Source of the DNA: Sphingomonas sp.
GTDB taxonomy: Bacteria > Pseudomonadota > Alphaproteobacteria > Sphingomonadales > Sphingomonadaceae
Length of the DNA: 64,000 bases
Assembly: GCA_019635535.1 (NCBI GenBank)
Contig: JAHBZH010000001.1
Coordinates: 2,260,995 to 2,324,994 of the forward strand
Direction: 5' to 3'
The stretch's first letter is position 1, and each line of letters opens with the position of its first letter. Positions 6,136-21,960 of this stretch are shown here, one piece after another. The notes beneath the pieces were generated by a model. The model searched no databases. It was not told the DNA's origin and saw only the letters and a program-made list of their open reading frames with translations. The translations under genes were made by a program, and so were the position numbers.

Positions 6136-8289
6136 CTATTCGAAAGTCAGCAAAGCGGGTCGCGACGCGGCATGCGTGCCGATCTGCGACAGCACGATCC
6201 CGAGCGGGCCGCTCAATCCGTCGCTGGCCTGCAGCGCGGCGCTATAGACATGATGCGGTGCATCGAGCACGATCGTCCGCGCGAAACCGTCACCGGACAA
6301 CGTCAGTCGATATGCTTCGCGCTCCTCGCCCAGCGGCGTGTCGGCGCCGCTTTGCCAGACCCAGCCGCCCCGGCTGCGCCGGACCCAGCGGATCAGGATG
6401 TCGCCGGCACCGTTCCGCTCGGCCGCGAGATGGACCGGGGACGGCGGCCGCAGCGATTCCCCGACGATGGCAAGCGCCGCCGATACGGGCGCGGCGTCCC
6501 CGACCCCGCTGGCCGTCAGGCGCGCCTCGCCGCCGATGCTTCCCGCCGGTGCCACGATCGCCGCCAGGCTTTCCCGCTCGATCAGCGTGAAAGCCTCGCC
6601 CGCCTCGTGCGTCCCGGCAGCCCATTCGGTCCCGCGCCGTCCGCGCAATAGCCGCGACAGACGGAAGCGGCGCGGCGCGATCCACGTCGCCGCGCCGAAC
6701 TGAACGAGCTCATCGCCGATCAGCGCCAGATTGACGCCTCCGGCCAGCGTCACGTCGCTCGCGCCCGCCAGCCACATCGCATCGTTCAGCAGCTCGATCT
6801 CGACATTCGACGACAAATCGAACAGGGCCGCTCCCCCCGGCTTCAGCATGGTCAGCGCAACGCCCATCATGGTCGCCGGCGCCGTCTGCCCAAGCTCGCG
6901 CCAGGTGCCGCCGCCGTCGAAGCTCGCCAGCAGCGCCGCGCGCCGCCATCCGGGCTCGACGCCCGCCGCCGCCGCGAACAGCACGGGCTGCGCGCCCGAA
7001 TCGCCGATCGGCAGGTCGAACAGCCGCAAGGTCGTCGGCCCGTGCGGCCGATCCTCCTCCTTTACGCCGCTCCCCGGCGCCGCCTCGGCCGCGGGCGGCA
7101 ACGCCCCGGCGCTCATCCGCCGCAGCTCCAGCGACAGGCCCTCCGCGCCCAGCGTCCAGCGATCTACCCGCCAGCGCCCCGCTTCGCCCGCCAGCGCCAC
7201 GCCGTCGCCCGGCCGCAGTCCGCAACGCGCCCAGCCGAGCCCGATCGTGGCGCCGACCCGTCCGGCGCGCAACCAGGCGAGCCGATGCTCAGCCAGCCCT
7301 TTCGCCGCGCCGGCATCGACCGCCGCAGGCAGCGCCCGGCGATCGGCATTGCTCTCGTCCGTCCCGCCGACGCTCGCGCGCTGCAGCCCGGTCTGATAGT
7401 CGCGCGCCGGATCGTAATAAACGATGCTGACCTCGCCCGGCACGGCGCCCGCCGCGCGCCGCACGATCCGGCGGCGTCCCCGCTCTTCGCCCGCCCCGAC
7501 CGCGACCGGCGCGTCCGTCCCCGCGCGCATCCGCAGCATCCCGTCGCGATCGGCCAGCGACAGCGGCACGATGTCGGACAGGGCTTCGACCGCGCCGCGC
7601 ACGCTGTCCCCGCTCGCCGCATAGCCGGTCAGCACCGGCGTTTCCCCGGCAACAACCGCCCCGCCGCTCAGCTCATGTGCGATCGTCCCGATCGCCACCG
7701 GCCCCGGATCGGCCTCGACCTCGAAGGTCAGCGAGGGAATGCGGTTGCCGAAATCGGCAAGCTGGAAATTCTCGAACATCGCATAGGCGATGCCGCGAAA
7801 GGCGGGCGCCTGCCCCACGCCCTCGGCCGAAGCGATCAGCGGGTCGATCGCCTGGTCCTCGTCGCCCACATAAAGCCGAAATCCGGTCGCGCTCTTGAAG
7901 TCGCCCGCCGCGCCGCGCAGCAGCTTGCCGTCCGCCCAGATCCGCCGCACCGCGCGGATCGGCCGTCCCGACAGCGCCACCGCGAAGCTCGCCGAATAGG
8001 CATAGGAGACGGTCTTCGGCTGCCCCTTGCCGCCGCCGCTGGACGACCGCGTCTCATTGAGGTCGGTCGCCCAGATCACCGTCCCGGCCACGCGCATCAT
8101 CCCGAACAGCTTCGGAATGGCGGTGCCGTAAGTGGAGGTCTGGACAGCCAGATCGCCCAACCGGGGCCCATGCCGCGCCTTGGGGCCGAGCACCGCCTGG
8201 TCGATCCGCTGGCCAAGGATCGCGCCGACGGCGCCGCCGATCGGTCCGCCGATCGCGGTGCCCACCGCGGTCAGGATCAAGGTCGCCAT
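6136..8289 (-). CDS. GTA tail hub/tip protein (gp15-like, short form)
   Basis: The 717-residue protein begins with a glycine-rich hydrophobic stretch (ILTAVGTAIGGPIGGAVG) typical of phage tail-tip proteins that contact membranes. It continues with the tail-protein core (VQTSTYGTAIPKLFGMMRVAGTVIW, then LPSL-type segments such as GNRIPSLTFEVEADPG). The C-terminal half looks like repeated beta domains. By position, directly after the NlpC/P60 gene with no gap, it corresponds to Rhodobacter GTA gp15. RcGTA gp15 is about 1300 residues with a TIM-barrel region, so this copy is much shorter. There is no frameshift in it. Confidence 0.85.
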   Translation of the reverse strand: MATLILTAVGTAIGGPIGGAVGAILGQRIDQAVLGPKARHGPRLGDLAVQTSTYGTAIPKLFGMMRVAGTVIWATDLNETRSSSGGGKGQPKTVSYAYSASFAVALSGRPIRAVRRIWADGKLLRGAAGDFKSATGFRLYVGDEDQAIDPLIASAEGVGQAPAFRGIAYAMFENFQLADFGNRIPSLTFEVEADPGPVAIGTIAHELSGGAVVAGETPVLTGYAASGDSVRGAVEALSDIVPLSLADRDGMLRMRAGTDAPVAVGAGEERGRRRIVRRAAGAVPGEVSIVYYDPARDYQTGLQRASVGGTDESNADRRALPAAVDAGAAKGLAEHRLAWLRAGRVGATIGLGWARCGLRPGDGVALAGEAGRWRVDRWTLGAEGLSLELRRMSAGALPPAAEAAPGSGVKEEDRPHGPTTLRLFDLPIGDSGAQPVLFAAAAGVEPGWRRAALLASFDGGGTWRELGQTAPATMMGVALTMLKPGGAALFDLSSNVEIELLNDAMWLAGASDVTLAGGVNLALIGDELVQFGAATWIAPRRFRLSRLLRGRRGTEWAAGTHEAGEAFTLIERESLAAIVAPAGSIGGEARLTASGVGDAAPVSAALAIVGESLRPPSPVHLAAERNGAGDILIRWVRRSRGGWVWQSGADTPLGEEREAYRLTLSGDGFARTIVLDAPHHVYSAALQASDGLSGPLGIVLSQIGTHAASRPALLTFE

Positions 8290-8691
8290 TCATCGCCTCC
8301 CGCGCCACAGCCGCCAGACGCCGAGCACTGGCCAAAGCAGTTCGCCCGGCCGCTCGACGATCCGCCGCAGCCCGGCATCGGCATGGATCAGCCCGTCGCC
8401 CGTCCAGATGCCGAGATGAAGCTGCTCCGGCCCGGTCCGCAGCGTCAGCACATCGCCCGCTTCCATCGCTCGGACGGGCCGGAATCCCGCCGCGCGCAAT
8501 CCCTTCGCCAGCACCTCCGCCGATCCGCCGCGCAGCGCATAGCCGGACGGCGGATCGGCGATCCCCGCCGCCGCCGCGACCAGCCCGATGCAATCGAGCC
8601 CCGCCGCCGGATCGCGCCCCTGCGCCCGAAAGCGCACGCCGATCAGGCCGCGCGCCCGCGCGACGATCCGCGCCGCCTCACTCTTCCTCAT
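8290..8691 (-). CDS. NlpC/P60 family tail peptidase (GTA gp14-like)
   Basis: The 133-residue protein has the NlpC/P60 arrangement: nucleophile Cys in AAGLDCIGLVAAAAG and a downstream His in QLHLGIWTGDGLIHAD, with the polar third residue expected near the next strand. Proteins at this place in GTAs cut peptidoglycan peptides during DNA entry. It abuts gp15 and its 5' end overlaps the small lipoprotein gene by 14 bp. The active-site residues are intact, in keeping with a functional tail tip. Confidence 0.87.
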   Translation of the reverse strand: MRKSEAARIVARARGLIGVRFRAQGRDPAAGLDCIGLVAAAAGIADPPSGYALRGGSAEVLAKGLRAAGFRPVRAMEAGDVLTLRTGPEQLHLGIWTGDGLIHADAGLRRIVERPGELLWPVLGVWRLWRGRR

Positions 8692-8827
8692 CGTCCGCGT
8701 CTTCGGCCGGCGGCGCCTTCACCAGCTCGATCCGGCTCCCGTCGACGATCACCAGCACATGTTCGGGAATATGGGCGCAGCCGCTCGTGACGAGCGCCAG
8801 CAGCCCCGCGCAGACACGCAGTCGCAT
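8678..8827 (-). CDS. Small lipoprotein inside the GTA operon
   Basis: ATG 8827 opens a 49-codon gene. It encodes a short signal with a lipobox (LALVTSGC) and then about 30 residues ending in an acidic tail (AEDADDEEE). GGAGAAG lies just upstream as ribosome site, and the gene overlaps the gp14-like gene by 14 bp. I do not recognise the family. By position between hub and peptidase, and as a lipoprotein, it might be an immunity or superinfection-type protein or a spanin-like part, but this is inference. Confidence 0.6.
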   Translation of the reverse strand: MRLRVCAGLLALVTSGCAHIPEHVLVIVDGSRIELVKAPPAEDADDEEE

Positions 8828-8850
8828 GGGTCTTCTCCTTCGGTTGAATC

Positions 8851-8872
8851 CCCCTCCCGCTCGCGGGAGGGG
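8851..8872. repeat. CCCCTCCC/GGGAGGGG palindrome
   Basis: Two perfect 10-bp arms (CCCCTCCCGC and its complement) separated by 2 bp are followed by AGGGGTGGG. The element lies between two genes of the GTA operon. A sister copy with TT in the arm lies at 16152-16173, and degenerate copies are near 53190 and 22910. It looks like a dispersed REP-type hairpin and could attenuate transcription. Confidence 0.75.
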
Positions 8873-8889
8873 TCAGGGGTGGGCAGCCC

Positions 8890-9705
8890 TCAGCCGCCCG
8901 GATAGCGCGTCAGCAGGTCGATCCCCGGCAGGTGCGGCTCGCCGCGAAAGTTCGCCGCATTGCCGAACCGCCCGGCGCAGGTCGCCAGGCTCCGGTCGCA
9001 CCCTTCGGTAATCTCGACCAGGTCGCCGACCTCGGGCACGAAATGCGGCGGCTCCCGCAACGTCAGCAGCGTCCCCTCGCTCCGCAAGATCGCGCTCTCC
9101 AGCCCGCTGTTGCGCCCGCCGATCCAGCGCAGCCGGCCATAGCCATAGGCATTCCCCGCCGCCGCGCCCGTCACCTCGATCGCGTCCTCGTCCACTACCG
9201 CCGCGATCCGCGTCAGCCGCGTGCGCGGCGCCATGTCGATCCGGCAGCGCGCGTCGCCCAGCATCGCCCGGCATTCCGGCGAGGTCTGCTCGACCACCGG
9301 CCGGTCCAGCATTGCGGCCGGCCCCTTCAGCTCCGCCTCGAAGCTCTCGCCCTCGGTCGAAACCTCGCCCAGCACCCCGCGCGCGATCTCCAGCCGCTCC
9401 ACGCCCGGCGCCTCCCAGTCCGTCATGAAGACCGCCACCGCCGCCCCGTCCCAGCGCCCGGCGGCAAGATCGCCGGCCCGGATCGCGTCGCTGGTCAGCG
9501 CGCCCTTCACGTCCAGCGCGTCGGCCGCGAACCCGTCCGACAGCGTGATCGCCGACGGCAGCATCCCCGGCGCCGCGCGATAGACCAGCCCGTCAACCAC
9601 CAGATCGCGGTCGTGCGCCGTGAACCCGATCGCCACCCCGTCCCGTCGCTCGAGCCGCCAGCACAGGGCGAAGCTGATCAGGTCCCGCGCCAGAAAATCC
9701 GCCAT
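8890..9705 (-). CDS. DUF2163 baseplate hub protein (GTA gp13-like)
   Basis: The 271-residue protein has the DUF2163 layout: LCWRLERRDGVAIGFTAHDRDL near the N terminus, FEAELKGP in the middle, and the C-terminal cysteine-bearing segments SPECRAMLGDARCRID and GCDRSLATCAGRFGN. In Rhodobacter GTA the equivalent hub protein binds an iron-sulfur cluster through four cysteines, and four are present here. It follows the gp12-like gene after about 58 bp that hold a REP-like hairpin. ATG 9705 is preferred over GTG 9711; both share the GGTGGG ribosome site. Confidence 0.87.
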   Translation of the reverse strand: MADFLARDLISFALCWRLERRDGVAIGFTAHDRDLVVDGLVYRAAPGMLPSAITLSDGFAADALDVKGALTSDAIRAGDLAAGRWDGAAVAVFMTDWEAPGVERLEIARGVLGEVSTEGESFEAELKGPAAMLDRPVVEQTSPECRAMLGDARCRIDMAPRTRLTRIAAVVDEDAIEVTGAAAGNAYGYGRLRWIGGRNSGLESAILRSEGTLLTLREPPHFVPEVGDLVEITEGCDRSLATCAGRFGNAANFRGEPHLPGIDLLTRYPGG

Positions 9706-9722
9706 ATCCACCCACCATCGTC

Positions 9723-9742
9723 ATTCCCGCGCACGCGGGAAT
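9723..9742. repeat. ATTCCCGCG hairpin, REP-like
   Basis: A perfect 9-bp inverted repeat with a 2-bp loop lies in the short space between the gp12-like and gp13-like genes. The surrounding words (GTCATTCCCGCG, GGGAATCCAG) match a common dispersed intergenic repeat of proteobacteria. Confidence 0.7.
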
Positions 9743-9763
9743 CCAGCTCTCTTGAAAGAGCGA

Positions 9764-12037
9764 TCAGCTTTCCCGAATCTCGATCAACGGCACGGACGGA
9801 ATCTCTCCCGCCGCGAAGGTGGCGCGGCTCACGCTCAGGCGGTCCTCGGCGAAGCGTACCGGCACGTCGAAGCGGAAACCCGCCGTCACCGCCGCACCGT
9901 CGGCCGGCGGCTCGGCGAAGCTCACCACGCCTCCTTCGCCCAGCGCCCAGCCGCTCATCCGCTCCACACCGTCCACCGCGACCCGCACGCTTCCCGCCAC
10001 CGGCCGCGTGATCCGCCGCTCCTGCCCGCCATAATGCTTGATCAGCGCGAAGTCGGTCCGCGCTCCGTCGCCCGTCCCGATCGCTTGATCAGTGGCCTCA
10101 GCTTCGCCCGTCATCCCGTTGGAACTATTGTCGAAAGGATCTTCGAACCGAAAGCCCACAGCCGCCCCGCGCCGCGCCCGGAAGAAAGCGATCAGCGTGT
10201 GCAAATCGGCCTCGCCCCGCACGCCCGGCCCGGCATCGAAGCGCAGCCGCGCATCGGCCCATTCCGCGTTGCGCTGCTCCGCCCCGCTTGCCGTCGTCGC
10301 GATCGCGGTCGAGAAAGCCGGCTCCACGCTCGCCTCGCGCCCCAGGCTGATGGGAAAACGCACATCGTCGAAAGCGTCCACGTCCTTGTCTCCGATTTCA
10401 AACCAGGTGAACCCGTCGCGCAGCACCTGCGGCAGCGCCCAGAAGAACGTCTCCGCCGTCCCCCGCCGGCGCGCCGCTTCGGCCGCCGCTGCAATGGCGT
10501 GCCACTGGCCGCGATCCTCCGCGTTCAGCACGAAGCCGGCCAGATAATGCTGCTCGGCGACCGGATAGCCGAGCCGCGCTTCCATCTCGGCCACCGCCGG
10601 CCCCGTCGCGCCGGAGCGCCCGGCGGTGATCCAGTCATAATCCTCGAGCTGGAGCACATCGAAGGCCGGCGACGCCCAGCCAAGCGGCACATTCGCCCGC
10701 TTCACCTCTTCGCCCTCCAGCACGGTCGGCAGAAAGACGAGCAGCAATATCTCGGCATCCTCGTCCACTTCCCGCACCGCATCGCACAAGGCCGCGGTCG
10801 AGGCCGCCAGCACGGCCCCCGCCGCGTCCAGCGTAGCGATCTGCGCCGCATCGAGCGCCCCGCGCACGTCCGCGATCGCCACCGGATCGAACGCCGCCAC
10901 CGCCGCGTCGTCATAAAGGCAGATGCGCCCCTCACCCGTCACCCACCACCAGGGCTCGCCGACCTGGAACCGCACGCGCTGCCCTGCCGCCACGGCCAGC
11001 CCCGCAAAGGCCGTCGCCACGTCCCGCAACCACCCCATCGCCGCCTCATTGGCCGGCGACAGCAGGGCCGAGGGCGGCTCCCACCCGGTCAGCGCCGGGT
11101 TGCCCTCCCCGTCCCGCTGCTTCCACGCCTCCGGGCAATGCGCGTCGAGCAGTTCGTAGCTCAGCGACAGGATCGCCTCGAACCCCAGCGTCTTCGCCCG
11201 CGCCAGGAAATCCGCATGCCAGGCCGCGCAGGGCGCGTTCAGCGCGCCGGTCACCTTCAGGGCACCGTCGAGCCGGAAATAATGGCTCATGCCGACATAA
11301 TGATTGATGAGCCCGCGATAGCCGAGCCGCAGCACATTGTGCAGCATCCGCTCCGGCGTCAGGTGATAGAGATCGTCATAGCCCGTCGCGATCCGCAGCT
11401 CATGCTCCGGCACGATCGTGTCGCCGATCGCCAGCACCGATCCGGAGCCGTCGCAGGCGATGCCCTGCATCTCCGCCCAGCCCTCGGCCGGCGCCGGCAA
11501 CATCTCGTCGGTATCGGTGTAGCCGGGCGGCACCAGCGAGATGAACATCCGGTCCACATCGCCCGCCCACACCGGATCGTCCTTGTCCCACCCCCCGGCC
11601 AGCGCCGCGAAGTCGAGGCTCACCGCCGCATCCTCCGGCGATCCTTGCGCATAATTCCACAGCCGCACGAACCAGCTCCGCGCCGCCCCGCTCGCGTCCC
11701 GCCCCTCGATGGTCAAGGTCGGCCCGTGCACCGCATCCAGCGGCACCAGCCCGCCCGACCGCCAGCGAAAGGACAGCCGGCACCGCCTGAAGTCCCTGTC
11801 CGTCCGATATTTCAGCAGCGGATGATCCCACCGATCCTCCGCGTCCCAGATCAGCCCCGCCAGATCGTCCGCCTTGTAGAACACCGCCTCGATCCGAAGC
11901 GCGTTCGGCCCGGTCGTCACCGCGCTCGCCATCATCGGCCGCGGAAAATCGACGGTCCAGTAACGCGCGTCGAACCGTTTGACGGTCCCGAGCGCTTTCG
12001 CGCTGCCGGGCGGGGCGAGCCAATGTCCCACGCTCAA
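9764..12037 (-). CDS. GTA distal tail protein: glycosidase-like N-terminal region plus DUF2460
   Basis: This 757-residue protein is the longest in the cluster. Residues from about 545 to the end match DUF2460, the whole of Rhodobacter gp12, with RFPISLGREASVEPAFSTAI and the end GFRFDVPVRFAEDRLSV. The first 530 residues are extra. They contain aromatic and acidic patches such as FQVGEPWWWVTGEG, FDVLQLEDYDWIT and ETFFWALPQVLRDGFTWFE, like the strand ends of a TIM-barrel glycosidase. Sphingomonad relatives carry similar long forms, as I recall. The start is TTG, sharing bases with the tape-measure stop (TTGA). Confidence 0.83.
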   Translation of the reverse strand: MSVGHWLAPPGSAKALGTVKRFDARYWTVDFPRPMMASAVTTGPNALRIEAVFYKADDLAGLIWDAEDRWDHPLLKYRTDRDFRRCRLSFRWRSGGLVPLDAVHGPTLTIEGRDASGAARSWFVRLWNYAQGSPEDAAVSLDFAALAGGWDKDDPVWAGDVDRMFISLVPPGYTDTDEMLPAPAEGWAEMQGIACDGSGSVLAIGDTIVPEHELRIATGYDDLYHLTPERMLHNVLRLGYRGLINHYVGMSHYFRLDGALKVTGALNAPCAAWHADFLARAKTLGFEAILSLSYELLDAHCPEAWKQRDGEGNPALTGWEPPSALLSPANEAAMGWLRDVATAFAGLAVAAGQRVRFQVGEPWWWVTGEGRICLYDDAAVAAFDPVAIADVRGALDAAQIATLDAAGAVLAASTAALCDAVREVDEDAEILLLVFLPTVLEGEEVKRANVPLGWASPAFDVLQLEDYDWITAGRSGATGPAVAEMEARLGYPVAEQHYLAGFVLNAEDRGQWHAIAAAAEAARRRGTAETFFWALPQVLRDGFTWFEIGDKDVDAFDDVRFPISLGREASVEPAFSTAIATTASGAEQRNAEWADARLRFDAGPGVRGEADLHTLIAFFRARRGAAVGFRFEDPFDNSSNGMTGEAEATDQAIGTGDGARTDFALIKHYGGQERRITRPVAGSVRVAVDGVERMSGWALGEGGVVSFAEPPADGAAVTAGFRFDVPVRFAEDRLSVSRATFAAGEIPSVPLIEIRES

Positions 12038-12600
12038 TCCTCCACCCGCATCAGCGCCGCCCTGACGGCCCGCGCCACCTGCCGGCTCGACGCCTTGAGC
12101 GCTCCCGCCGGCTCGCCCGCCGGCGCGTTGATGCTGATGCTCACCCGCACCTCGCGCGCCCCTTGGGTTCCCATCGCCTCCACCCGCCCGCTCGCGGTCG
12201 GCACGAACAGCTCCGGCCCGCGCTCGCCGACCAGATAGGGCCGCCCCGGCGCCACCGGCCCGCCGGCCGCGCGCCCCGGCAGCCCGCCGATCGCGCCGAG
12301 CAGCGCCCCGATCGTTCCGCCCAACCCCCTGCCGCCGCCCAGCAAGGCGCCGAGCCCGGTGCGGATCGAGGCGGTGGCGATCTCCGCCATCGCCGACAGC
12401 GCCACCCGCTTCAGATCCTCGAAACCCAGCCGCCCGGTCCGGAGCGCCCGCGCCAGCGCCGTCTCCAGCGCCCGCCCGGCCCGCTCCGCGCCGCCGGCCA
12501 GCGGCCCGTCCAGCTCGGCCTTCATCGCCGCCACGTCGCGCGCGAAGGCGGCGGTGTCGGCCCGCACGCCGATCACCAGCCGCTCGATTTCCTCATCCAT
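12034..12600 (-). CDS. Short tail tape-measure protein (GTA gp11-like)
   Basis: The 188-residue protein has a helical N terminus (ERLVIGVRADTAAFARDVAAM) and a glycine-rich hydrophobic centre (LGALLGGGRGLGGTIGALLGAI). It ends with the common tape-measure motif GGPVAPGRPYLVGERGPELFVP. The small size fits the short tail of GTAs (RcGTA gp11 is also about 200 residues). It overlaps the preceding chaperone gene by 8 bp and the gp12-like gene by 4 bp, so it is tightly coupled. Confidence 0.87.
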   Translation of the reverse strand: MDEEIERLVIGVRADTAAFARDVAAMKAELDGPLAGGAERAGRALETALARALRTGRLGFEDLKRVALSAMAEIATASIRTGLGALLGGGRGLGGTIGALLGAIGGLPGRAAGGPVAPGRPYLVGERGPELFVPTASGRVEAMGTQGAREVRVSISINAPAGEPAGALKASSRQVARAVRAALMRVED

Positions 12601-12781
12601 CGGGAAACATCTCCATCAGCTGCGCCAGGTCGCCTTGCGTCGCGCAAGGCTCCTCGCCGCCTGTCATCGCATTCAGCACCGCCGTCAGCTCCGCCGGCGT
12701 CGCCGCCCAGAACTCGTCCGGCCGCCAGCCCAGCAAGACGCCGGCCAGGCCCGCCAGCCGCGCCGCGCTTTCGCTAAACAC
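12593..12781 (-). CDS. GTA tail assembly chaperone, small (gp10.1-type, DUF2376)
   Basis: The 62-residue protein from GTG 12781 reads LLGWRPDEFWAATPAELTAVL, the hallmark of the rcc01693/phage tail assembly chaperone family. It overlaps genes on both sides by 8 bp. It is expected to bind the tape measure during tail assembly together with the gene before it. The length is normal for the family. Confidence 0.85.
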   Translation of the reverse strand: MFSESAARLAGLAGVLLGWRPDEFWAATPAELTAVLNAMTGGEEPCATQGDLAQLMEMFPDG

Positions 12782-13091
12782 GCCCTTGCAATATCTGCGT
12801 CAGCAGCGCCTTCAGCACCGGCGTCGCCCGGACGAGCCCGCCCTCCGCCACCGCCACGCCGATCGCCTCGCGCGTGCAGCTTTCCGGCCGCTCGTGGACG
12901 CAATGCCAGAACAGGCCCGCCATCTCGGCCAGGGTCAGCCGCCCCTCCGCCGCCCGCTCGACGAGCGCGAAAAGCGGCCCCAATTCTTCCTCCGCCGCGA
13001 CCAAGGCGGAAAAGCTGGGCCGCAGCACCAGAACCGTGCCGCTCACCAGCATCGCCACCTCGCCCCGCGCCGGATTGGCCGGCCGGCTCAT
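12774..13091 (-). CDS. GTA family protein, tail tube chaperone (gp10-like)
   Basis: The 105-residue product carries NPARGEVAMLVSG and LRPSFSALVAAEEELGPLFALVERAA, which match the gene transfer agent family protein next to the major tail gene. ATG 13091 overlaps the major tail protein stop as ATGA, which fixes the start. Paired with the gene after it, this resembles the two-part tail chaperone of siphophages. Confidence 0.85.
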   Translation of the reverse strand: MSRPANPARGEVAMLVSGTVLVLRPSFSALVAAEEELGPLFALVERAAEGRLTLAEMAGLFWHCVHERPESCTREAIGVAVAEGGLVRATPVLKALLTQILQGRV

Positions 13092-13495
13092 ATCGCCGCC
13101 ACGGTGCCGGAGCTTTCCAGCGCCAGCGCATAGGTCCGCTCGCCATTGTGATCGCCGGCATAATCGAGCCGCGTCACCAGGAAGCGCCCGCGCATCCGCT
13201 CGCCGCTTTCGAAGCTCAGCTCGTACTCGTCGAGCGCCCCCGCGAGCGCATTGGTCCTGAGCCGCGTCTCCGCCGCCGAGCCGGTGAAGATCCCGCTCGC
13301 CGCCACGGAAACGGAGCGAATGCCCGCCCCGGACAGCAGCTCGCGCCAACCGCCGGAATCCTTGGACGTCACGTTCACCGCCTCGCCGTTCACCGACATC
13401 TGCGTGGTCCGCATCCCGGCCACCGTCGCATAGGCGGGCGGGTCTTCCCCGCCACTGATCTTGAGCAAGAATGCACTTCCTTTTTCGGCGCCCAT
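13088..13495 (-). CDS. Major tail tube protein, TP901-1 family (GTA gp9-like)
   Basis: The 135-residue protein has the sequence layout of TP901-1 major tail proteins. It begins GSAFLLKISGG, has the insertion-loop-type segment TTQMSVNGEAVNVTSKDSGGWRELL, and ends DYAGDHNGERTYALALESSG. It would stack as hexamers into the tail tube. The start has AAAGGAG in place. Its upstream neighbour on the plus strand begins about 47 bp away and is divergent, so a promoter for the tail half of the cluster may lie here. Confidence 0.87.
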   Translation of the reverse strand: MGAEKGSAFLLKISGGEDPPAYATVAGMRTTQMSVNGEAVNVTSKDSGGWRELLSGAGIRSVSVAASGIFTGSAAETRLRTNALAGALDEYELSFESGERMRGRFLVTRLDYAGDHNGERTYALALESSGTVAAI

Positions 13496-13542
13496 GGCGC
13501 AATCTCCTTTCCGTCAAGCAAATGAAAAATTTGGGGGTTCGG

Positions 13543-13929
13543 ATGCTTTCAATTCTGCTTGCGCTCGCCGCGATGGGGCAGACCGAGGCGATCAACACCG
13601 CCCGTCAGGGCTATTCGAGTTGCCTGCGCCAATATTTGAACGAGAGCATGGAGCAGAACGTGGCTCCCGATGCTTTCGAGCGGGGCATTGGCGCCCAGTG
13701 CACCAGTCAGGCCACCTCCTTCCGCGAGGCGTTGATCCAGCGCGATGTCCGCGCCGGCGGCGGTCGTGCGCGCGCCGAAGAGGATGCGCGGATCACGATG
13801 GAAGACCTGCGCGCCAATTTCATCGAGATGTATCGCGACGAAATGGGCGCCGCGGCCCCGCAGGCCCAGGCGTCGAGCGAGCCGCAAACCGAAGAACCTC
13901 AGGCCGACGCGCCCGAAACGCCGCAATAG
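13543..13929 (+). CDS. Small exported protein inserted in the GTA cluster on the opposite strand
   Basis: From ATG 13543 this encodes 128 residues: a signal peptide (MLSILLALAAMGQTEA), then a helical domain with two cysteines (SSCLRQYL, GAQCTSQATSF), and a Pro/Gln/Glu-rich tail. I recall similar unnamed periplasmic proteins in sphingomonads, but no function. GGGGG sits 5 bp before this start; ATG 13522 in the same frame would add a basic segment and is the alternative. It is convergent with the tail terminator gene and divergent from the major tail gene. Confidence 0.7.
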   Translation: MLSILLALAAMGQTEAINTARQGYSSCLRQYLNESMEQNVAPDAFERGIGAQCTSQATSFREALIQRDVRAGGGRARAEEDARITMEDLRANFIEMYRDEMGAAAPQAQASSEPQTEEPQADAPETPQ

Positions 13930-13938
13930 CTCCACCGG

Positions 13939-14328
13939 TCAGCCCTCGATCGCCAGCATGCGGGCGCGATAGTCGATCGTGCCGATCCAGCCGTCGCGCC
14001 CGTCCGGAACGATCCGCATGCGCAGGAAGGCCAGGCTGACGATCCGCCAGCCACCCGTCGCCATGTCCGGTCCGGCCATTGCCGCCTCGGCCGCCGCGAT
14101 CAGCCGCCGCAACCGCTCAGGCCGTTCGCCCTTGTCGCGGATCGCGATGGCGAGCCGGACCTCGCGTCCCGCGCCGGTCTTGTGGCTCCAGTCCGCTTCC
14201 GCGCCGGCGTCCACCGTCGCATAGGGGTGCGCCGCCTGCCACGGCCGGGCGTCGAAGATTCCGCTGAGCCCGGCGATCCCGGCCAGTTTCGCCGTCGCCG
14301 CCTTGGCCAGCGCCTCACCCGCGCTCAT
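13939..14328 (-). CDS. DUF3168 tail terminator (GTA gp8-like)
   Basis: The 129-residue protein shows the DUF3168 pattern: AHPYATVDAGAEADWSHKTGAGREVRLAIAIRDKGERPERLRRLIAAAEAAM in parts, with the strand-rich end GTIDYRARMLA. Tail terminators cap the tube and bind the connector. It overlaps the preceding 71-codon gene as ATGA. Its stop is 9 bp from the stop of the plus-strand exported-protein gene, so the two are convergent. Confidence 0.87.
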   Translation of the reverse strand: MSAGEALAKAATAKLAGIAGLSGIFDARPWQAAHPYATVDAGAEADWSHKTGAGREVRLAIAIRDKGERPERLRRLIAAAEAAMAGPDMATGGWRIVSLAFLRMRIVPDGRDGWIGTIDYRARMLAIEG

Positions 14329-14540
14329 CGCAATGCTCCCATCGTCAGCCAGCGCAGGGCCGGATCGAGCGCGAAGCGCCGGGCGAGCCCGCGCCCGGCA
14401 ATCCGCACGCCGTCCGGCCCGGCCTCGGTCTGGACGCCCGGCGACGCCTGCGCGGCCAGCCGCGCCGCGATCTTACGCGTGCGTTCGTCGGCTTTCTCGC
14501 GCGCGCGCCTGTCGGCATGCGCGCTCAGTTTCTCGAACAT
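14325..14540 (-). CDS. Small GTA connector-region protein (gp7 position)
   Basis: The 71-residue basic protein has a helical first half rich in Arg/Ala/Glu and ends GRGLARRFALDPALRWLTMGA. It lies between the DUF3168 gene (ATGA overlap) and the head-tail connector gene (6-bp gap), where RcGTA has its stopper gene. I recognise it only by position and by similar small proteins in sphingomonad clusters. It is shorter than the RcGTA stopper. Confidence 0.7.
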   Translation of the reverse strand: MFEKLSAHADRRAREKADERTRKIAARLAAQASPGVQTEAGPDGVRIAGRGLARRFALDPALRWLTMGALR

Positions 14541-14546
14541 CCTTGC

Positions 14547-15086
14547 TTATCCCATTCTCAGCCGGCGCCAGGGCCGCCACAGGGCCGTGACCGATGCCGG
14601 CGGCGGCAGGGCGCCCGGCCCGTTCGCCTCGCGATGCGCGTGGAGATGCGCCGCCAGCCGCACGATCCCCTGACGGATCGCCTCCGGCAGGTCGGCAGCG
14701 TCTTCCGCCAGCCCGGCGCGGTAACCGACGCGCACCCGCCCGGCCGCGATCGGCCCGGTCAGCCGCACCCAGCCTTCGCCCGCCGCGTCGATGTCGATCG
14801 CATAGGCATCGGTCGGCAGCGGTTCGGCCGTGCCGTCCGCCGCGACCGTCTCGATCGCCCGCACCGGCGCCGACGCCAGCCGCGTCCAGCCGCGCGGGGC
14901 CGGGATCGTCTCCTCGACGGTGCGGGCGACGAGCAACCGCCCGAGAAACGCCTCGCAGACCGCCGCCGCACCGCGGATCAGCCCCGCCAGGATCGCGTCC
15001 TCGGCGCTGCCCTCGATCCGCAGCCAGGCTCTGAGCTCGCCGATCGGCACGGGGATCGGCCCCGCCTCGGTCGCCGGCAGGGTCAT
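14547..15086 (-). CDS. Head-tail connector protein (GTA gp6-like)
   Basis: The 179-residue protein matches the phage gp6-like connector family: IGELRAWLRIEGSAEDAILAGLIRGAAAVCEAFLGRLL at its helical N terminus, then beta strands and the C-terminal helix LPEAIRQGIVRLAAHLHAHRE. It would sit under the portal. ATG 15086 shares a base with the stop of the adaptor gene (TGATG), so translation is coupled. It is intact even though its portal partner is lost. Confidence 0.85.
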   Translation of the reverse strand: MTLPATEAGPIPVPIGELRAWLRIEGSAEDAILAGLIRGAAAVCEAFLGRLLVARTVEETIPAPRGWTRLASAPVRAIETVAADGTAEPLPTDAYAIDIDAAGEGWVRLTGPIAAGRVRVGYRAGLAEDAADLPEAIRQGIVRLAAHLHAHREANGPGALPPPASVTALWRPWRRLRMG

Positions 15087-15364
15087 CACCTCTCCTCCAC
15101 GCGCAGCGTGATCGATCGCTCGTCCACGCTGCCGTCGGACATCGTCACCCGGTTGGCGACACTGTAGACGCGCCCCGCCAGCCCGCCCGCGATGCGCGCG
15201 GCGCTGCGATTGAGGTCGAAGCTCGCCGCCTCCACCACGATGCCGCCGGCTTCGTCCGGCGTCGCCGACCATATGCTTTCGGCGATCGCCTGCCCGTCCA
15301 TGTAGCCGCCCCAGTCGATCGCATAATCGACCCGCGATTGCGGGTCCTTCAGATAGAAGCCCAT
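15086..15364 (-). CDS. Phage fibre-tail adaptor-type protein
   Basis: The 92-residue protein begins with KDPQSRVDYAIDWGGYMDG and ends in DERSITLRVEE, the pattern of small immunoglobulin-like phage fibre-tail adaptor proteins. AAGGAG precedes the ATG. It is coupled to the connector gene by a one-base overlap. It probably forms part of the neck or head decoration of the particle, by analogy only. Confidence 0.75.
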   Translation of the reverse strand: MGFYLKDPQSRVDYAIDWGGYMDGQAIAESIWSATPDEAGGIVVEAASFDLNRSAARIAGGLAGRVYSVANRVTMSDGSVDERSITLRVEER

Positions 15365-15380
15365 TGCCCCGCTCCTTCAT

Positions 15381-15530
15381 TCATGGCCGCGTCGCCCGCG
15401 CGTCGCGCGGATCCGCCGCGATCCGGTTCGTCTCGGATGTCCCGGCCGGCCTGGGGCCGGTCTGCTCGCTCGCCAGCACGCGCCGTCCCGCCGCGCCGAT
15501 CGCGCGCGCCGCGATGGCCGCGCCCAGCAT
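15381..15530 (-). CDS. Small hypothetical protein in the GTA remnant region
   Basis: A 49-codon frame starts at ATG 15530, sharing one base with the stop of the fibre-like fragment (TGATG), and ends 16 bp before the adaptor gene. The product has a short hydrophobic start (MLGAAIAARAIGAAGRRVL) and then a basic, polar remainder. I do not recognise it. The coupling arrangement is the only support that it is translated. Confidence 0.45.
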   Translation of the reverse strand: MLGAAIAARAIGAAGRRVLASEQTGPRPAGTSETNRIAADPRDARATRP

Positions 15531-16146
15531 CACGAAACCCCCGCGCCGGAGACGATCGCCTCGGTCGTGCCGTTGAACCAGATCGTCGCGAAGCCGCGTG
15601 CCGCCAGCGTTCGGTTGCCGGTCGTGCCGGTTCCGGCGAGCCGCAGCGTGAGGCCGCTGCCCTGCGTGATCGTGATCGCCGATCCGCTGTCGTTGTAGAT
15701 CGAATAGGTGCTGCCCGCCGCCGCGCCGGTGTTGAGCGTGACGCCGCTGCTGGCCGCATGGCATTTGCCCCGCTCGATCCCGCCCGTCACGCGCGGAATG
15801 TCGCGATAGCCCAGTTCGAGACTGCCTTCGGCGAGCACGATACCGGCGAAAGTCGCCTGTGTCGCCGTGAACTGGAACAGCCAGCCGTCATCAGTGGCAT
15901 TGACCGCGCCAAAATTGTTCGACTGTCCGACGATTGTGAGCATGTTGTTGTTGGAGCCGTCCCGCACGTTGATCTGGCCCTGCGAGGAGCCGCGCAGCAC
16001 GATCTTCTGGTTCTGCGCTCGATCAACGGTAATCGCGCCGCTGAACGTACGCCCCGCGCGAGGCTCCGCGCGAACGCCCCGGCTCGCACCACGTCCCCGC
16101 CCCGGTCCGGATGTCCGAACACGGCCGCATAACCGGCGAACCGCAT
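15530..16146 (-). pseudogene. Prohead protease 5' fragment joined to a fibre-like 3' fragment
   Basis: From ATG 16146 the frame reads MRFAGYAAVFGHPDRGGDV and VRAGAFARSLARG, the N terminus of an HK97-type prohead protease. At about 16055 the homology stops. The other frame takes over there (TFSGAITVDRAQNQKIVLRG onward), giving about 170 residues of repetitive phage structural protein ending FATIWFNGTTEAIVSGAGVS at 15530. The protease frame itself continues as nonsense to a stop at 15787. The protease body and its catalytic residues, the major capsid gene and the start of the fibre gene are therefore missing. This reads as one deletion with an out-of-frame join. Confidence 0.75.
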
Positions 16147-16151
16147 CACCT

Positions 16152-16173
16152 CCCCTCCCTTTCAAGGGAGGGG
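16152..16173. repeat. CCCCTCCC/GGGAGGGG palindrome, second copy
   Basis: Arms CCCCTCCCTT and AAGGGAGGGG are separated by 2 bp and followed by AGGGGTGGG, the same element as at 8851-8872. It sits just upstream of the protease remnant, next to the deletion-scarred region. That leaves open whether repeats of this family took part in the rearrangement. Confidence 0.75.
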
Positions 16174-16215
16174 ATCGAGGGGTGGGTGGCGAGCGCAGCG
16201 AGCCCTCGGCCTCGC

Positions 16216-16566
16216 CTACCCACGCAGCATCTCCAGCAGCCCGGCCCGGAGCGCGATCCCCGCCACCAGCAGCGCCAGCGCGATCCGCACCAGCCAACTC
16301 ACCACCGCCTCGCGCGCCGATCGCTTCGCGTCGCGCCAGGCCCGCAGCAATTCGCGCAGCTCGTCCATGTCGCGCCGCGCATTGTCGTCGGTCAGCCCGA
16401 TCGCGGCGAGCGCGCGCTGCGCGATCGGATTGCCGAGATAAGCCTCCCGCACCCGCGCCTCGTAGGAACGCGGCCAGGGCTCCCCGCTTACGCCGGCACC
16501 CCATCCGCCAAACAGAAAAGGCCGCCCGGCATCCCGGGCGGCCTTGCGGCCGAACCACCATTTCAT
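16216..16566 (-). pseudogene. Portal protein remnant fused in frame to DUF6127
   Basis: From ATG 16566 the first 52 or so residues (MKWWFGRKAARDAGRPFLFG, then YEARVREAYLGNPIAQRA) are the start of an HK97-family portal protein. The next residues (LAAIGLTDDNARRDMDELRE, then a membrane helix VRIALALLVAGIALRAGLLE) are a DUF6127 protein, which in sphingomonad GTAs follows the portal gene. The join is in frame and gives a 116-residue open product. The portal normally has about 400 residues, so almost all of it is gone. The fused product might still supply the DUF6127 part. Confidence 0.75.
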
Positions 16567-16691
16567 GCGTCTCTCCATGATCGCCGGCGCTTGCCGGAAT
16601 TTTCCCCCGCATCGCCGCCCCACCGGAACGACGCGCGGTCTAAATCGTTGAATCCGAACCCTTAACCCCCCGTAACGAGGAGCCTATCGTC

Positions 16692-17069
16692 ATGGCCTAC
16701 GACACCGTCGATCGCACCGTCGCGCGCAGCGAAACCACCGATCTCATCGCCTCCGACAAGGTCGAAGGCACCAATGTCTATAACCGCGACGGCGAGAAGC
16801 TCGGCTCGGTCAGGAACTTCATGGTCGGCAAGCGCAGCGGCCGCGTCGATTACGCGGTGATGAGCTTCGGCGGCCTGTTCGGCCTGGGCGAGCGTTACTA
16901 TCCGCTCCCCTGGGACACGCTCGATTACGACACCGACCGGGGCGGCTATGTCGTCGACATCGACAAGCAGCGCCTCGAAGGCGCGCCCTGGTACGAGCCC
17001 GGCAAGGAGCCGACCTACGACCGCGTCTACGGCGAGCGTGTGTACGGCTATTATGGCGTGCCTTTTTAA
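16692..17069 (+). CDS. PRC-barrel domain protein
   Basis: The 125-residue soluble protein has a PRC-barrel core: LIASDKVEGTNVYNRDGEKLGSV, then GRVDYAVMSFGGLFGLGERYYPLPWD and GGYVVDIDKQRLEGAPWY, with a tyrosine-rich tail. Such proteins often accompany stress or envelope functions, with no known enzyme activity. GAGGAG lies upstream of the ATG. It is plus-strand between two minus-strand GTA genes (TerL and the portal remnant), where it splits the head operon. Confidence 0.85.
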   Translation: MAYDTVDRTVARSETTDLIASDKVEGTNVYNRDGEKLGSVRNFMVGKRSGRVDYAVMSFGGLFGLGERYYPLPWDTLDYDTDRGGYVVDIDKQRLEGAPWYEPGKEPTYDRVYGERVYGYYGVPF

Positions 17070-17080
17070 GACGTGGCCGT

Positions 17081-17128
17081 CCCGACAATAGCGCCGCGGA
17101 CGCGAAGCGGCGCCGAAGCTATTGTCGG
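17081..17128. terminator. Long inverted repeat after the PRC-barrel gene
   Basis: Outer arms CCGACAATAGC (17082-17092) and GCTATTGTCGG (17118-17128) enclose inner arms GCGCCGC and GCGGCGC. The hairpin begins about 12 bp after the PRC-barrel stop. It lacks a strong T-run, so it is a possible factor-dependent or bidirectional terminator. Confidence 0.55.
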
Positions 17129-17182
17129 AGTCGGCCCGTCCGGCCGGCGGGTCGGGCGGTTAAACCCGCCCGAACCCGTTCG

Positions 17183-17210
17183 ACGTCACGGCACAATGGT
17201 GCCGTGACGT
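17183..17210. terminator. Perfect 12-bp hairpin downstream of terL
   Basis: ACGTCACGGCAC and its exact complement are separated by AATG, 9 bp beyond the terL stop (minus-strand reading). It is strong enough to be a transcription stop or an operator. No T-run follows, so the terminator label is tentative. Confidence 0.55.
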
Positions 17211-17219
17211 TCGGGCCGA

Positions 17220-18527
17220 TCACAACCCCCGCACCCTCGGCGCCCGCGCCTTGCCCAACAGCAACTCCGCCATCGCCCAGACCATCGCATCGGCCCGGTC
17301 CGGCGACCGCCCCGGCCCCTCATAACCCGCCACGGTCATCCCGCAGAGCTGGTCCTCCAGCTCGGGAAAACCGCCCGCGAACAACGCTTTGCCCGCCTCG
17401 AAGCGCAGCGCCACCGGCTCGGCCCGCAGTCCCTTGCCGAACCGCGCCGTCACCGGCCGCACCGGCAAGGCGCAATCCACGCCGCGGAGCATTGCCTCGA
17501 CCATCTCGCCGCCCTGATTGGTCTCGACCACCACCCGGTCCGCCTCCCACAGCTCGGCGGCGCGCACCACGGCCCGCGCCCAGCCCTCGGGGCTCAGTCC
17601 TTCGACGCTGCAATCGTCCAGAACATAGCCGATGCCGTCCGCGCCCAAAGCGCAGGCGACGATGCCGCAGCCGCCCCCGCCCGCCGGCGGATCGACCCCG
17701 ATCACCACCCGGCGCCGCGTCGCGGGGGCGGTGGCGCGCCTCTTCTCGATCAGCGCGCGCGTCCACAGCGCCCCGTCCGCCTCCTCGATCAGCTCCCCGT
17801 CCAGCTCCTGCCGGCCCAGCCGCGTGCCGCCGTACAGATCGGTCATCGCCGCCACGAAATCGTCCGGCAGGTACGCATTGTCCGCGGTGCGCCCGCCGGT
17901 CCCTGCCGTGTCGGGGCTCTCCTTCAGCGTGCGGATCAGGGCGATCGGCCGGGGCGTCGTCGTCACCAGCACCCGCGCCTCCTCGCCCAGCCTGAGGCCC
18001 AGCAACAGATTCGTCCAGGTCGCCTCGGGATAGGCCCATTTGGCCAGCTCGTCGCACCAGGCGATATGATGCTCCGGCCCGCGCAGCCCGTCGGGATTGG
18101 CGCCCGAATAGGCGAAGGCCCGTGCCCCGCTCGGAAATTCCAGCAGCCCGCGCGTCCGGTACCAGGGCAGTTCCTCATCGAACCGCGCGACCGCCTTCAG
18201 CCCGCTTTCGCCCCGGATCATCACCCGTTCGACCTCGTCGATCGTCGCGCCGACCAGGGCGATCCTCAGGTCCCCGTCGGCCCGCGCCAGCGCGCTCACC
18301 CATTCCGCGCCGGCCCGGGTCTTGCCGAAGCCGCGCCCGGCGAGCATCAGCCACACCCGCCAGCCGCCCTCGGGCGGCAGCTGGCCGTCATGGGCCAGGA
18401 TCTCCCACGCCTCGCCGAAGGCGCGCTTCTCCGGATCGGTCAGCCGCGCGGCGACCCAGGCCCGCTCTTCCGGCGCGCGCCGCGCGAGCGCGTGGATCGC
18501 GGCGCGCAGCGCCTCCGCTTCGCTCAC
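17220..18527 (-). CDS. Large terminase subunit (GTA gp2-like)
   Basis: The 435-residue DNA-packaging motor protein has a Walker A-type loop (LMLAGRGFGKTRAGAEWV), Walker B (HHIAWCDELAKW), the coupling motif VTTTPRP, and a C-terminal RNase H-like nuclease domain (RRVVIGVDPPAGG, then SPDRADAMVWAMAELL). GTG 18527 overlaps the small terminase stop as GTGA, which fixes the start. All catalytic segments are present. The enzyme therefore looks intact although the portal it needs for packaging is missing from this locus. Confidence 0.92.
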   Translation of the reverse strand: MSEAEALRAAIHALARRAPEERAWVAARLTDPEKRAFGEAWEILAHDGQLPPEGGWRVWLMLAGRGFGKTRAGAEWVSALARADGDLRIALVGATIDEVERVMIRGESGLKAVARFDEELPWYRTRGLLEFPSGARAFAYSGANPDGLRGPEHHIAWCDELAKWAYPEATWTNLLLGLRLGEEARVLVTTTPRPIALIRTLKESPDTAGTGGRTADNAYLPDDFVAAMTDLYGGTRLGRQELDGELIEEADGALWTRALIEKRRATAPATRRRVVIGVDPPAGGGGCGIVACALGADGIGYVLDDCSVEGLSPEGWARAVVRAAELWEADRVVVETNQGGEMVEAMLRGVDCALPVRPVTARFGKGLRAEPVALRFEAGKALFAGGFPELEDQLCGMTVAGYEGPGRSPDRADAMVWAMAELLLGKARAPRVRGL

Positions 18528-19063
18528 TTGCTTTGCCTCGCCAGCCGGCGGTCCAGCGCGTCGAGCAGGCGCAGGATCGCCGCGGTGAGCTCCGCCTTGC
18601 TCGCGCGGCGGAGCCGGGCGCCCCGGCGCGGCGCGCGGCCCGCCCGGCCCGGCCATGGCCGGCTGAGCACCTTGAGCGCCAGTTCGGGATCGAATGTCGC
18701 GATGTCTCCCGGCGGCGTTTCGCCGGGCTCGACCGGGGCCGTCCGCCCTCCCGTCGCGGCATAGCGCACGGCCATCTCCTCCAGCCGCAGCAAGGCGACC
18801 GCGTGCGCCTCGTCATACTGCCGGGCGAAATCGGGATCGCGGCGGCGCAGCTGATAGGCGGCGCCCTCGTACATGCCGGCGGCGCGGCAGGCCTCGCCGG
18901 CATTGGCGCTGGCCGCGTAATGATCGAGGAAGATTTCGCGCCGTTTGGCGCTCCACCCGTCCTTGCGCACCTTGCGCACCTGCCGCCCGGCCTTCCCGCC
19001 CGACACGAATGTCTCTTGTGCCTCTTGTGCGCCTTGTATCGCTTGCGCCCCGTCCCGATCCAT
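18524..19063 (-). CDS. Small terminase-like DNA-binding protein (GTA gp1 position)
   Basis: The 179-residue protein has a helix-turn-helix-like section (WSAKRREIFLDHYAASANAGEACRAAGM) and a C-terminal helical part (ASKAELTAAILRLLDALDRRL) that runs into terL by 4 bp. I take it as the small terminase of the cluster. ATG 19063 has a strong GGAGGAG site. An early Gln/Ala segment is encoded by CTTGTG-type repeats. It is the first gene of the cluster, and the transposon lies 90 bp upstream. Confidence 0.78.
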   Translation of the reverse strand: MDRDGAQAIQGAQEAQETFVSGGKAGRQVRKVRKDGWSAKRREIFLDHYAASANAGEACRAAGMYEGAAYQLRRRDPDFARQYDEAHAVALLRLEEMAVRYAATGGRTAPVEPGETPPGDIATFDPELALKVLSRPWPGRAGRAPRRGARLRRASKAELTAAILRLLDALDRRLARQSK

Positions 19064-19085
19064 CGCCCGCTCCTCCGGCCGAAAC

Positions 19086-19113
19086 GAAAACGGGCTCCCG
19101 AATTGGGAGCCCG
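19086..19113 (-). terminator. Intrinsic terminator between the transposon and the GTA cluster
   Basis: On the minus strand a perfect 9-bp stem (CGGGCTCCC, loop of 5, GGGAGCCCG) is followed by TTTTCG. It faces towards the small terminase gene 23 bp before its start, so it should block read-through into the GTA from upstream. It was probably the natural end of the higBA transcript before the transposon inserted. Confidence 0.75.
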
Positions 19114-19152
19114 TCGGCGAATCGGCACATGTGTCCAGCTTGTGCGTCTTGT

Positions 19153-19174
19153 GGCGAATGTGCACTTGACATAC
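19153..19174 (+). repeat. Left terminal inverted repeat of the IS1595 element
   Basis: Twenty-two bases beginning GGCGAATGTGCACTT, identical to the complement of 21961-21982 except for one G/A difference at the sixteenth position. Confidence 0.95.
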
Positions 19175-19201
19175 CATGCGAGAGCGGGGTAGTCAGAGGG
19201 C

Positions 19202-20128
19202 ATGACAAAGCTAACCGACCCTATTTTCACCAATGAGGATGCAGCCCGCGCTCACTTTGAGGCGATCCGCTGGCCCGATGGTCGCATCTGCCCGCATTGC
19301 GGATCGGTCGATAATTCACACCTCATGCAGGGTAAGAGCACTCGCCCCGGCCTCTATAAATGCCGCGACTGCCGTAAGCCGTTCACCGCCACCATCGGGA
19401 CGATCTATGAGCGGTCGCATATCCCTTTGCACAAGTGGTTGCTCGCCACCCATCTTATTGTGGCCAGCAAGAAGGGCATGAGCGCAAAGCAGTTAGAGCG
19501 GATGCTTGGTTTCGGTTCCTACCGGACCGCATGGTTCATGGCGCACCGTATCCGCGAAGCGATGAAGCCGACTGACAACAGCCCTATGGGCGGTGACGGC
19601 GGCGCCGTGGAAGCCGATGAAACCTACATTGGCCGCAAGAAGGGCAAGGATGCCGCCGTCGCTGGAAACGCTCACAAGATGGCGGTGCTGTCGCTGGTCG
19701 AGCGCAATACCGGCCAGGTTCGCTCCTTCACGATCGAGAACACCCGCGCCGATGAAATCCACCCGATCATCCTGTCCAACATCGCCCGCGAAGCCCGTCT
19801 AATGACGGATGAGGCCCGCATGTATTGGAAGATCGGCAAGGGCTTCGCCGCCCATGGTCGCACCCTTCACGGTCGCGGTGAATATGTTCGCGGCGACATT
19901 CATTCCAACACCGTCGAGGGCTTCTTCTCTATCTTCAAGCGCGGGATGCGCGGCATCTACCAGCATTGCGGTCAGCACTATTTGAGCCGGTATCTGACCG
20001 AGTTCGATTTCCGCTACTGCTACCGTGAAGCCAATGGCTTTAACGACGCTGATCGGGCCAAGGTCGCCATTCAGGGTGCGGTCGGTCGCCGCCTGACCTG
20101 CCAACAACCTCACCAGCGGGCGTCCTGA
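19202..20128 (+). CDS. IS1595-family transposase
   Basis: The 308-residue transposase has an N-terminal zinc ribbon (Cys30, Cys33, Cys54, Cys57) typical of the ISXO2-like group. The catalytic ISXO2 domain follows: first Asp in VEADETYIGRKK (Asp139), second Asp in LMTDEARMYWK (Asp203), and HSNTVEGFFSIFKRGMRGIYQH, which gives the Asn236, Glu239 and Lys246 positions of the family. The frame is complete with no stop or shift, so the enzyme may be active. It starts 28 bp inside the left inverted repeat. Confidence 0.95.
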   Translation: MTKLTDPIFTNEDAARAHFEAIRWPDGRICPHCGSVDNSHLMQGKSTRPGLYKCRDCRKPFTATIGTIYERSHIPLHKWLLATHLIVASKKGMSAKQLERMLGFGSYRTAWFMAHRIREAMKPTDNSPMGGDGGAVEADETYIGRKKGKDAAVAGNAHKMAVLSLVERNTGQVRSFTIENTRADEIHPIILSNIAREARLMTDEARMYWKIGKGFAAHGRTLHGRGEYVRGDIHSNTVEGFFSIFKRGMRGIYQHCGQHYLSRYLTEFDFRYCYREANGFNDADRAKVAIQGAVGRRLTCQQPHQRAS

Positions 20129-20172: not shown

Positions 20173-20289
20173 CTAAGTCTTAGCTTTCGCCTTCTTGGGT
20201 TGTGGTGGGGTGGCAAGCATACGCTTGACCACTTCGTCACGACGGCGCGCTATTTCCACTTCCTCATGTTTTTTGTTCGCCTCGTTCAT
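20173..20289 (-). CDS. 38-residue passenger protein
   Basis: ATG 20289, with AAGGGATAAGG before it, starts a charged helical peptide (MNEANKKHEEVEIARRRDEV) ending PPQPKKAKAKT. It overlaps the end of the HNH gene by 26 bp in another frame, so it is translationally coupled. I recall short proteins with the RRRDE...TPPQPKK pattern beside IS1595-type elements in other proteobacteria, but none with a known function. It may be a partner or regulator of the HNH protein or of the transposase. Confidence 0.6.
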   Translation of the reverse strand: MNEANKKHEEVEIARRRDEVVKRMLATPPQPKKAKAKT

Positions 20290-21862: not shown

Positions 21863-21960
21863 ATCATCCCACTCCTCTGTGGGATGCTGCGCACCAAGGG
21901 GAAGACTTGTAAAGTCCCGTTCCAGCGGTCCCATGGTTTTCACCTAGCAGGTCCGCTTGA

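Follow-up and report, generated by a model that had tools for sequence, protein, structure and literature searches.

Two deletions have removed the portal, protease and capsid genes from a predicted RcGTA-like gene transfer agent cluster in a Sphingomonas genome

F-type tailocins consist of non-contractile phage tail genes without a head. Gene transfer agents (GTAs) form another group of phage-derived clusters, and their pseudogenization and loss in multiple alphaproteobacterial lineages have been described in the accessible parts of a previous study (PMC10883770). Incomplete GTA clusters are abundant according to the available text of another (PMC9765227), and work on a conserved Sphingomonadales prophage concerns a GTA, as stated in the accessible portion of PMC6821227. 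Among the papers listed on GTAs, tailocins and headless or tail-like particles, none describes a headless GTA, judging by titles and the first lines of abstracts. Here we analyzed a window of 64,000 nucleotides from a Sphingomonas sp. genome (GCA_019635535.1, contig JAHBZH010000001.1, positions 2,260,995 to 2,324,994), in which positions 6136-19177 on the minus strand are predicted to be an RcGTA-like cluster of a Sphingomonadales host. Like the pseudogenized or incomplete clusters in the accessible parts of PMC10883770 and PMC9765227, it has lost essential genes and kept others; unlike in those clusters, the deletion scars are directly readable. Recurrent GTA loss is already described, and this cluster is best read as a GTA on its way out, of a known kind.

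Among relatives whose cluster is intact, the closest is Sphingosinicella sp. LHD-64 (genome G021; locus L003, the same stretch as L121). The two clusters share the order terL-portal-DUF6127-protease-capsid-gpX-gp6-gp7-gp8-tube-g10-g10.1-g11-g12-g13-g14-g15, and their proteins from the tube to g15 are 64-85% identical. Between protease and capsid, the LHD-64 cluster contains an additional gene (L003 3969-4853), named by reading its translation, which resembles polyphosphate kinase 2. Unlike in LHD-64, the portal and protease genes of our genome (G000) are stubs and the capsid gene is absent. All other elements of the RcGTA-like synteny (terminase-portal-protease-capsid-neck-tail) are there, and the cluster is best classified, from its gene content, as a remnant of the RcGTA-like family by descent and not as a complete member. 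Most functions along the cluster were named by Pfam and PHROGs profile matches, and the features are as follows.

18524..19177, minus strand: small terminase terS open reading frame (phrog_4044, E 1.3e-11; relatives in G011, 47%, and G002, 44%)
17220..18656, minus strand: large terminase terL, intact (PF03237 4.4e-21, PF17289 3.8e-13; 66% to LHD-64 over 418/438, stop-free)
16692..17069, plus strand: PRC-barrel gene between terL and portal (PF05239 2.4e-15; copies 79% and 66% identical at the same position in LHD-64 and G011)
16399..16566, minus strand: portal stub, N-terminal ~53 codons (tblastn with the LHD-64 portal)
16216..16425, minus strand: C-terminal part of the DUF6127 gene, in frame with the portal stub (PF19622 1.8e-20; junction DNA)
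16021..16146, minus strand: prohead protease stub (~30 codons), up to the second deletion scar (tblastn with the LHD-64 protease)
15530..16048, minus strand: 3' part of a putative fibre-like gene, the remnant after the second deletion (open frame)
15086..15364, minus strand: gpX, a small conserved protein in the capsid-adaptor interval, intact (72% to LHD-64 over 92/92)
14547..15086, minus strand: gp6 head-tail adaptor, intact (phrog_442 3.3e-24, PF05135)
14325..14540, minus strand: gp7 (stopper position), intact (48% to LHD-64 over 65/71)
13939..14328, minus strand: gp8 tail terminator, intact (PF11367 9.8e-11, phrog_176)
13088..13495, minus strand: tail tube, intact (PF06199 5.7e-40)
12774..13091, minus strand: g10 (tail assembly chaperone position), intact (75% to LHD-64 over 105/105)
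12593..12781, minus strand: g10.1 tail assembly chaperone, intact (PF09550 9.8e-14)
12034..12600, minus strand: g11 short tape measure, intact (phrog_30701 1.5e-59 and tape-measure PHROGs)
9764..12037, minus strand: g12 distal tail protein, TIM barrel and DUF2460, intact (PF23845 3.8e-158, PF23844, PF09343)
8890..9711, minus strand: g13 hub, intact (PF09931 2.2e-54, PF09356)
8290..8691, minus strand: g14 peptidase (NlpC/P60), intact (PF00877 weak, 21.3 bits against a cut-off of 23; phrog_329)
6136..8289, minus strand: g15 tail tip protein, intact (PF23666 5.7e-24, PF13550 4.4e-22)

The portal, protease and capsid genes were removed by two separate deletions, and both scars fall within coding sequence. 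In tblastn searches with the LHD-64 proteins, only residues 3-55 of the intact 392-residue portal aligned (16557-16399, 68% identity), and residues 48-114 of the DUF6127 protein aligned at 16422-16222 (73%), continuing the portal frame. Together, the portal stub and what remains of the DUF6127 gene make up a single frame of 116 codons, and this first junction sits in a short GC-rich stretch common to both parent genes. From the 142-residue protease, residues 7-54 aligned at 16173-16021 with one stop within the match, and the stub is joined out of frame to the end of the fibre-like open frame, which had no relative in any fetched locus and no PHROG match. The LHD-64 capsid found no match anywhere in the window. 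These alignments confirm an earlier note, made from the letters of the window alone, which had described the portal, protease and capsid genes as gone or reduced to stubs of about 52 and 30 codons (about 53 and 30 here). The note was also right that the terminase, connector and tail genes are unbroken, every terminase, neck and tail frame being open. Its statement that the head module had been deleted holds for the portal, protease and capsid but not for the terminases and the neck genes gp6, gp7 and gp8, which are still there.

These observations can be joined in a simple mechanism. A first deletion would have joined the portal gene at about codon 53 to the DUF6127 gene, and a second would have removed most of the protease gene, the capsid gene and the start of the fibre-like gene. 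With the portal, protease and capsid gone, DNA packaging and delivery would have become impossible, and the deletions would be evolutionarily so recent that the remaining genes are still open. The cluster would then stand at an intermediate point between an intact GTA and complete loss, two states that are each frequent in the family. We consider it probable, at roughly 86%, that a recent deletion killed this RcGTA-like cluster and that it represents one stage in the recurrent loss of GTAs.

The frequency of head and tail loss was determined in 219 genomes of the family, each at least 98% complete, by searching with the capsid and with g12. By a hand count from the two listings, 135 genomes contained both, 7 contained g12 only (G000, G029, G088, G111, G161, G173 and G186), 5 contained the capsid only (G060, G094, G153, G155 and G194), and 72 contained neither. 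In this count, capsid matches with less than GTA-type identity were excluded manually (G000, G049, G071, G097, G160, G171 and G174; those of G049, G160, G171 and G174 on a weak E-value, their identity not being listed), as was the g12 match of G026 (residues 555-755 only). G004, with a capsid fragment, and G057, G059, G143 and G155, with a broken capsid, were counted as capsid-bearing, and G059, G061, G087, G137, G143 and G150 as g12-bearing despite a split g12. The losses are not skewed toward the head (7 genomes against 5 among the 219), and a comparison of the loci, which the earlier note had proposed, revealed that other internal deletions recur in the relatives, scattered over head and tail. 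Among the genomes with g12 only, G029 has lost capsid to g11, G161 has lost DUF6127 to g11, G186 has portal residue 313 joined to tube residue 80, G111 has terL residue 158 joined to g10 residue 67, G088 has lost everything before capsid residue 308 and has a stop in g11, and the G173 locus ends at a contig edge. On the other side, G060 has lost g12 and the start of g13, G155 has the capsid joined to g13 residue 164, and G094 has capsid residue 328 joined to g15 residue 197; in G153 and G194 the head genes are open, with no tail genes in the fetched stretch and no g12 in the genome. The g12-g15 frames are open in G029, G161 and G186, although all or most of the tube gene has been deleted. Because these three genomes without a usable tube, as well as G153 and G194 without a tail, keep clean frames, open frames in a broken GTA are no proof of kept function.

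Outside the 219 genomes, the capsid is absent and the tail is kept in Sphingobium sp. OAS761 (L066), in which a stop interrupts the portal and the protease frame passes into a fibre-like gene, similar to the arrangement in our genome, and in the metagenome contigs L202 and L215. Among 80 viral-contig loci, 47 had at least 7.5 kb upstream of g12 and 2 of these lacked the capsid (L202 and L215), 11 others being flagged for the portal only, at least partly since the stretch ends there; among 80 genome loci, 64 had at least 7.5 kb and 1 lacked the capsid (OAS761). Because these tallies are anchored on g12 and therefore biased toward tail-keeping clusters, the head-versus-tail comparison is based on the 219-genome searches only.

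In the genus (26 genomes), g12 was found in 12 genomes and a portal match in 15, some of them fragmentary or weak. Nine genomes contained head and tail genes, in one stretch in G002, G007, G011, G016, G021 and G025 and split over draft contigs in G010 (stop in g14), G012 (stop in g12, broken g15) and G015. G007 has one stop in g13 and a weak terL match only, and g15 is cut by the end of the fetched stretch in G007 and G011. The clusters of five genomes are cut or broken: that of G000; that of G003, with terL, portal and DUF6127, then the tube, then part of g15; that of G004, with a capsid without its first 232 residues, an open tail and no terL found in the fetched upstream stretches; that of G005, with terL, portal 1-125 and then g15 540-715; and that of G022, with frame breaks in g12 and g15 and no terL found upstream. 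The other 12 genomes had no g12 and no clear portal, G008 having just a 29% portal match.

Selection was estimated with a codon model with a free dN/dS ratio per terminal branch, using 29 taxa for g12-g15; the tests are approximate, with branches near saturation and all other branch lengths held at their values from the base fit. For g12-g15, the terminal-branch ratio of G000 was 0.17 against a background of 0.143 (likelihood ratio 2.2, not significant). The dead clusters of G029 and G186 also gave 0.17, and the values were 0.08 for G161, 0.10 for G111 and 0.07 for G088. In G000, terL had a ratio of 0.10 (background 0.12), the neck genes 0.13 (background 0.115) and the mid-tail genes 0.12 (background 0.11). 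The dN/dS of the tail genes, which the earlier note had put forward as a check, was thus 0.12-0.17, with no difference from the background. We dropped dN/dS as a discriminator, relaxation being found neither in G000 nor in several clusters known to be dead (e.g., G161 and G111). We regard it as neutral evidence, except that old decay is ruled out, because the test largely reflects the period preceding the deletion and is also passed by dead clusters.

The source genome (2.75 Mb in 2 contigs, 99.78% complete) contained no match to the portal family PF04860, the only family used for the portal, and none to the protease family PF04586; a query with the GTA portal found the stub only. The capsid family PF05065 had a single match in the whole genome, an open frame at C1:2388673-2389545, about 64 kb past the window end; the gene next to it encodes a 664-aa tape-measure protein whose PHROG matches belong to other phages. 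The existence of this capsid gene, together with a warning in the accessible text of PMC9765227 that incomplete clusters may have analogous replacements, favors the idea that the GTA still functions via the remote capsid and an unrecognized portal and protease. However, the remote capsid is 50% identical to the LHD-64 GTA capsid over residues 16-371, whereas the GTA capsids of the family lie at 57-83%. A displaced GTA capsid was rejected on this identity and on the prophage-type tape-measure neighbor, and we take the gene to be a probable prophage remnant. No GTA-type capsid was found in the cluster or elsewhere in the genome, and the stubs at the original site indicate deletion, not replacement. 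We therefore regard a working GTA as very unlikely. The search for head genes elsewhere, also suggested in the earlier note, found no complementing set by PF04860 and PF04586, which supports the note in its view of a GTA unable to move DNA. Judging from the RcGTA particle, a cluster lacking portal, protease and capsid could neither package nor deliver DNA; the accessible part of a structure paper (PMC7296036) supports the portal's function in the RcGTA head. Even less credible is an error of assembly, judged here from the assembly alone. The short stretch common to both sides of one junction could mislead an assembler, but the first junction is in frame, there are two separate junctions in a nearly complete two-contig genome, and several independent assemblies show other internal deletions.

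The earlier note had offered recent loss or selection for another use of the tail, and had likened the latter to a tailocin. Here selection would have kept the tail as a non-contractile device without a head, for killing or puncturing, similar to an F-type tailocin. The tail genes, tube to tip, are all open, tube-to-tip genes are held by five other clusters without a usable capsid (G004, G088 with its stop in g11, OAS761, L202 and L215), and G173, whose contig ends early, may be a further case. Like F-type tailocins, G000 has non-contractile tail genes without a complete head. Unlike F-type tailocins, it retains terS, terL, gp6, gp7 and gp8 beside its complete tail module, has no lysis pair by the two GTA-type families searched, and shows no selection signal on the tail alone. 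Such selection would leave terL relaxed, but terL and the neck genes, which a tailocin does not need, are unrelaxed. The lack of the GTA-type holin (PF11351) and the GH108 endolysin (PF05838) in G000 also speaks against a tailocin, but LHD-64 with its intact cluster lacks both too; the holin is found in 5 and the endolysin in 8 of the 26 genus genomes, and these release genes do not separate the hypotheses. Furthermore, four of the eight family genomes with g12 but no full GTA capsid (the seven above and G004) have also lost all or most of the tail tube (G029, G111, G161 and G186). With losses spread over head and tail and no bias toward the head, no headless arrangement conserved by selection is seen. 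Clean frames also occur in tube-less or tail-less clusters, and a tailocin-like use is not supported; recent loss fits the evidence, whereas selection for a tail weapon does not and appears most improbable. We give equally little credence to the broader idea that in Sphingomonadales GTA tails have time and again been uncoupled from their heads and retained for a while as secreted non-contractile puncturing particles. In that event, G000 would count among several independent examples, together with G004, OAS761, L202 and L215.

The preferred reading, a recent deletion, can be set against the neutral expectation. The cluster has 9,969 bases of open frame, in which 2.4% of substitutions would create a stop; under neutrality, the frames would remain stop-free with a probability of 50% at 0.003 and 5% at 0.013 substitutions per site, frameshifts uncounted. 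The terminal branch of G000 is far longer, with a distal-tail estimate of 1.54 per codon. About 10 kb of clean frames on such a branch therefore suggests that the deletion is very recent or that something was retained. Equally clean frames in relatives unable to assemble particles, and the scarcity of intermediates (12 of 219, against 135 intact and 72 lost), lead us to favor a young deletion over still-useful genes. The best relative in a scan of viral contigs reached 76%, too distant to date the deletion within the species. The rarity of partly deleted clusters, together with their often clean frames, suggests frequent inactivation through internal deletions and rapid removal of what is left. 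By itself, a frame that is still open in a broken GTA is no argument for a new function, and the cluster provides a well-resolved snapshot of a domesticated virus being lost.

Several minor features were observed. At L002 (6401-9816), an HK97-type capsid gene and a tape-measure gene form a prophage remnant, while the genome has no PF04860 portal match. The g12 protein has 757 residues, with Pfam domains named non-contractile tail sheath (N-terminal and TIM barrel) ahead of DUF2460. Between the tail terminator and the tail tube lies a conserved opposite-strand gene (window 13471-13929) without a Pfam match, which is also present in 8 other genus genomes at ~31-50% identity. Among the compared loci, the PRC-barrel gene in the terL-portal interval was found only in G000, LHD-64 and G011; being on the opposite strand, it would divide transcription of the cluster between two units. 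Directly upstream of terS is an IS1595-type transposase gene, followed by a low-GC GmrSD-like restriction gene (window 19202-20128 and 20264-21943), and the transposase insertion may have cut the cluster off from its own promoter. The terL tree pairs G000 with G011 (support 0.997) and the g12-g15 tree pairs it with LHD-64 (1.000), a conflict that points to a possible exchange of terL between GTA clusters.
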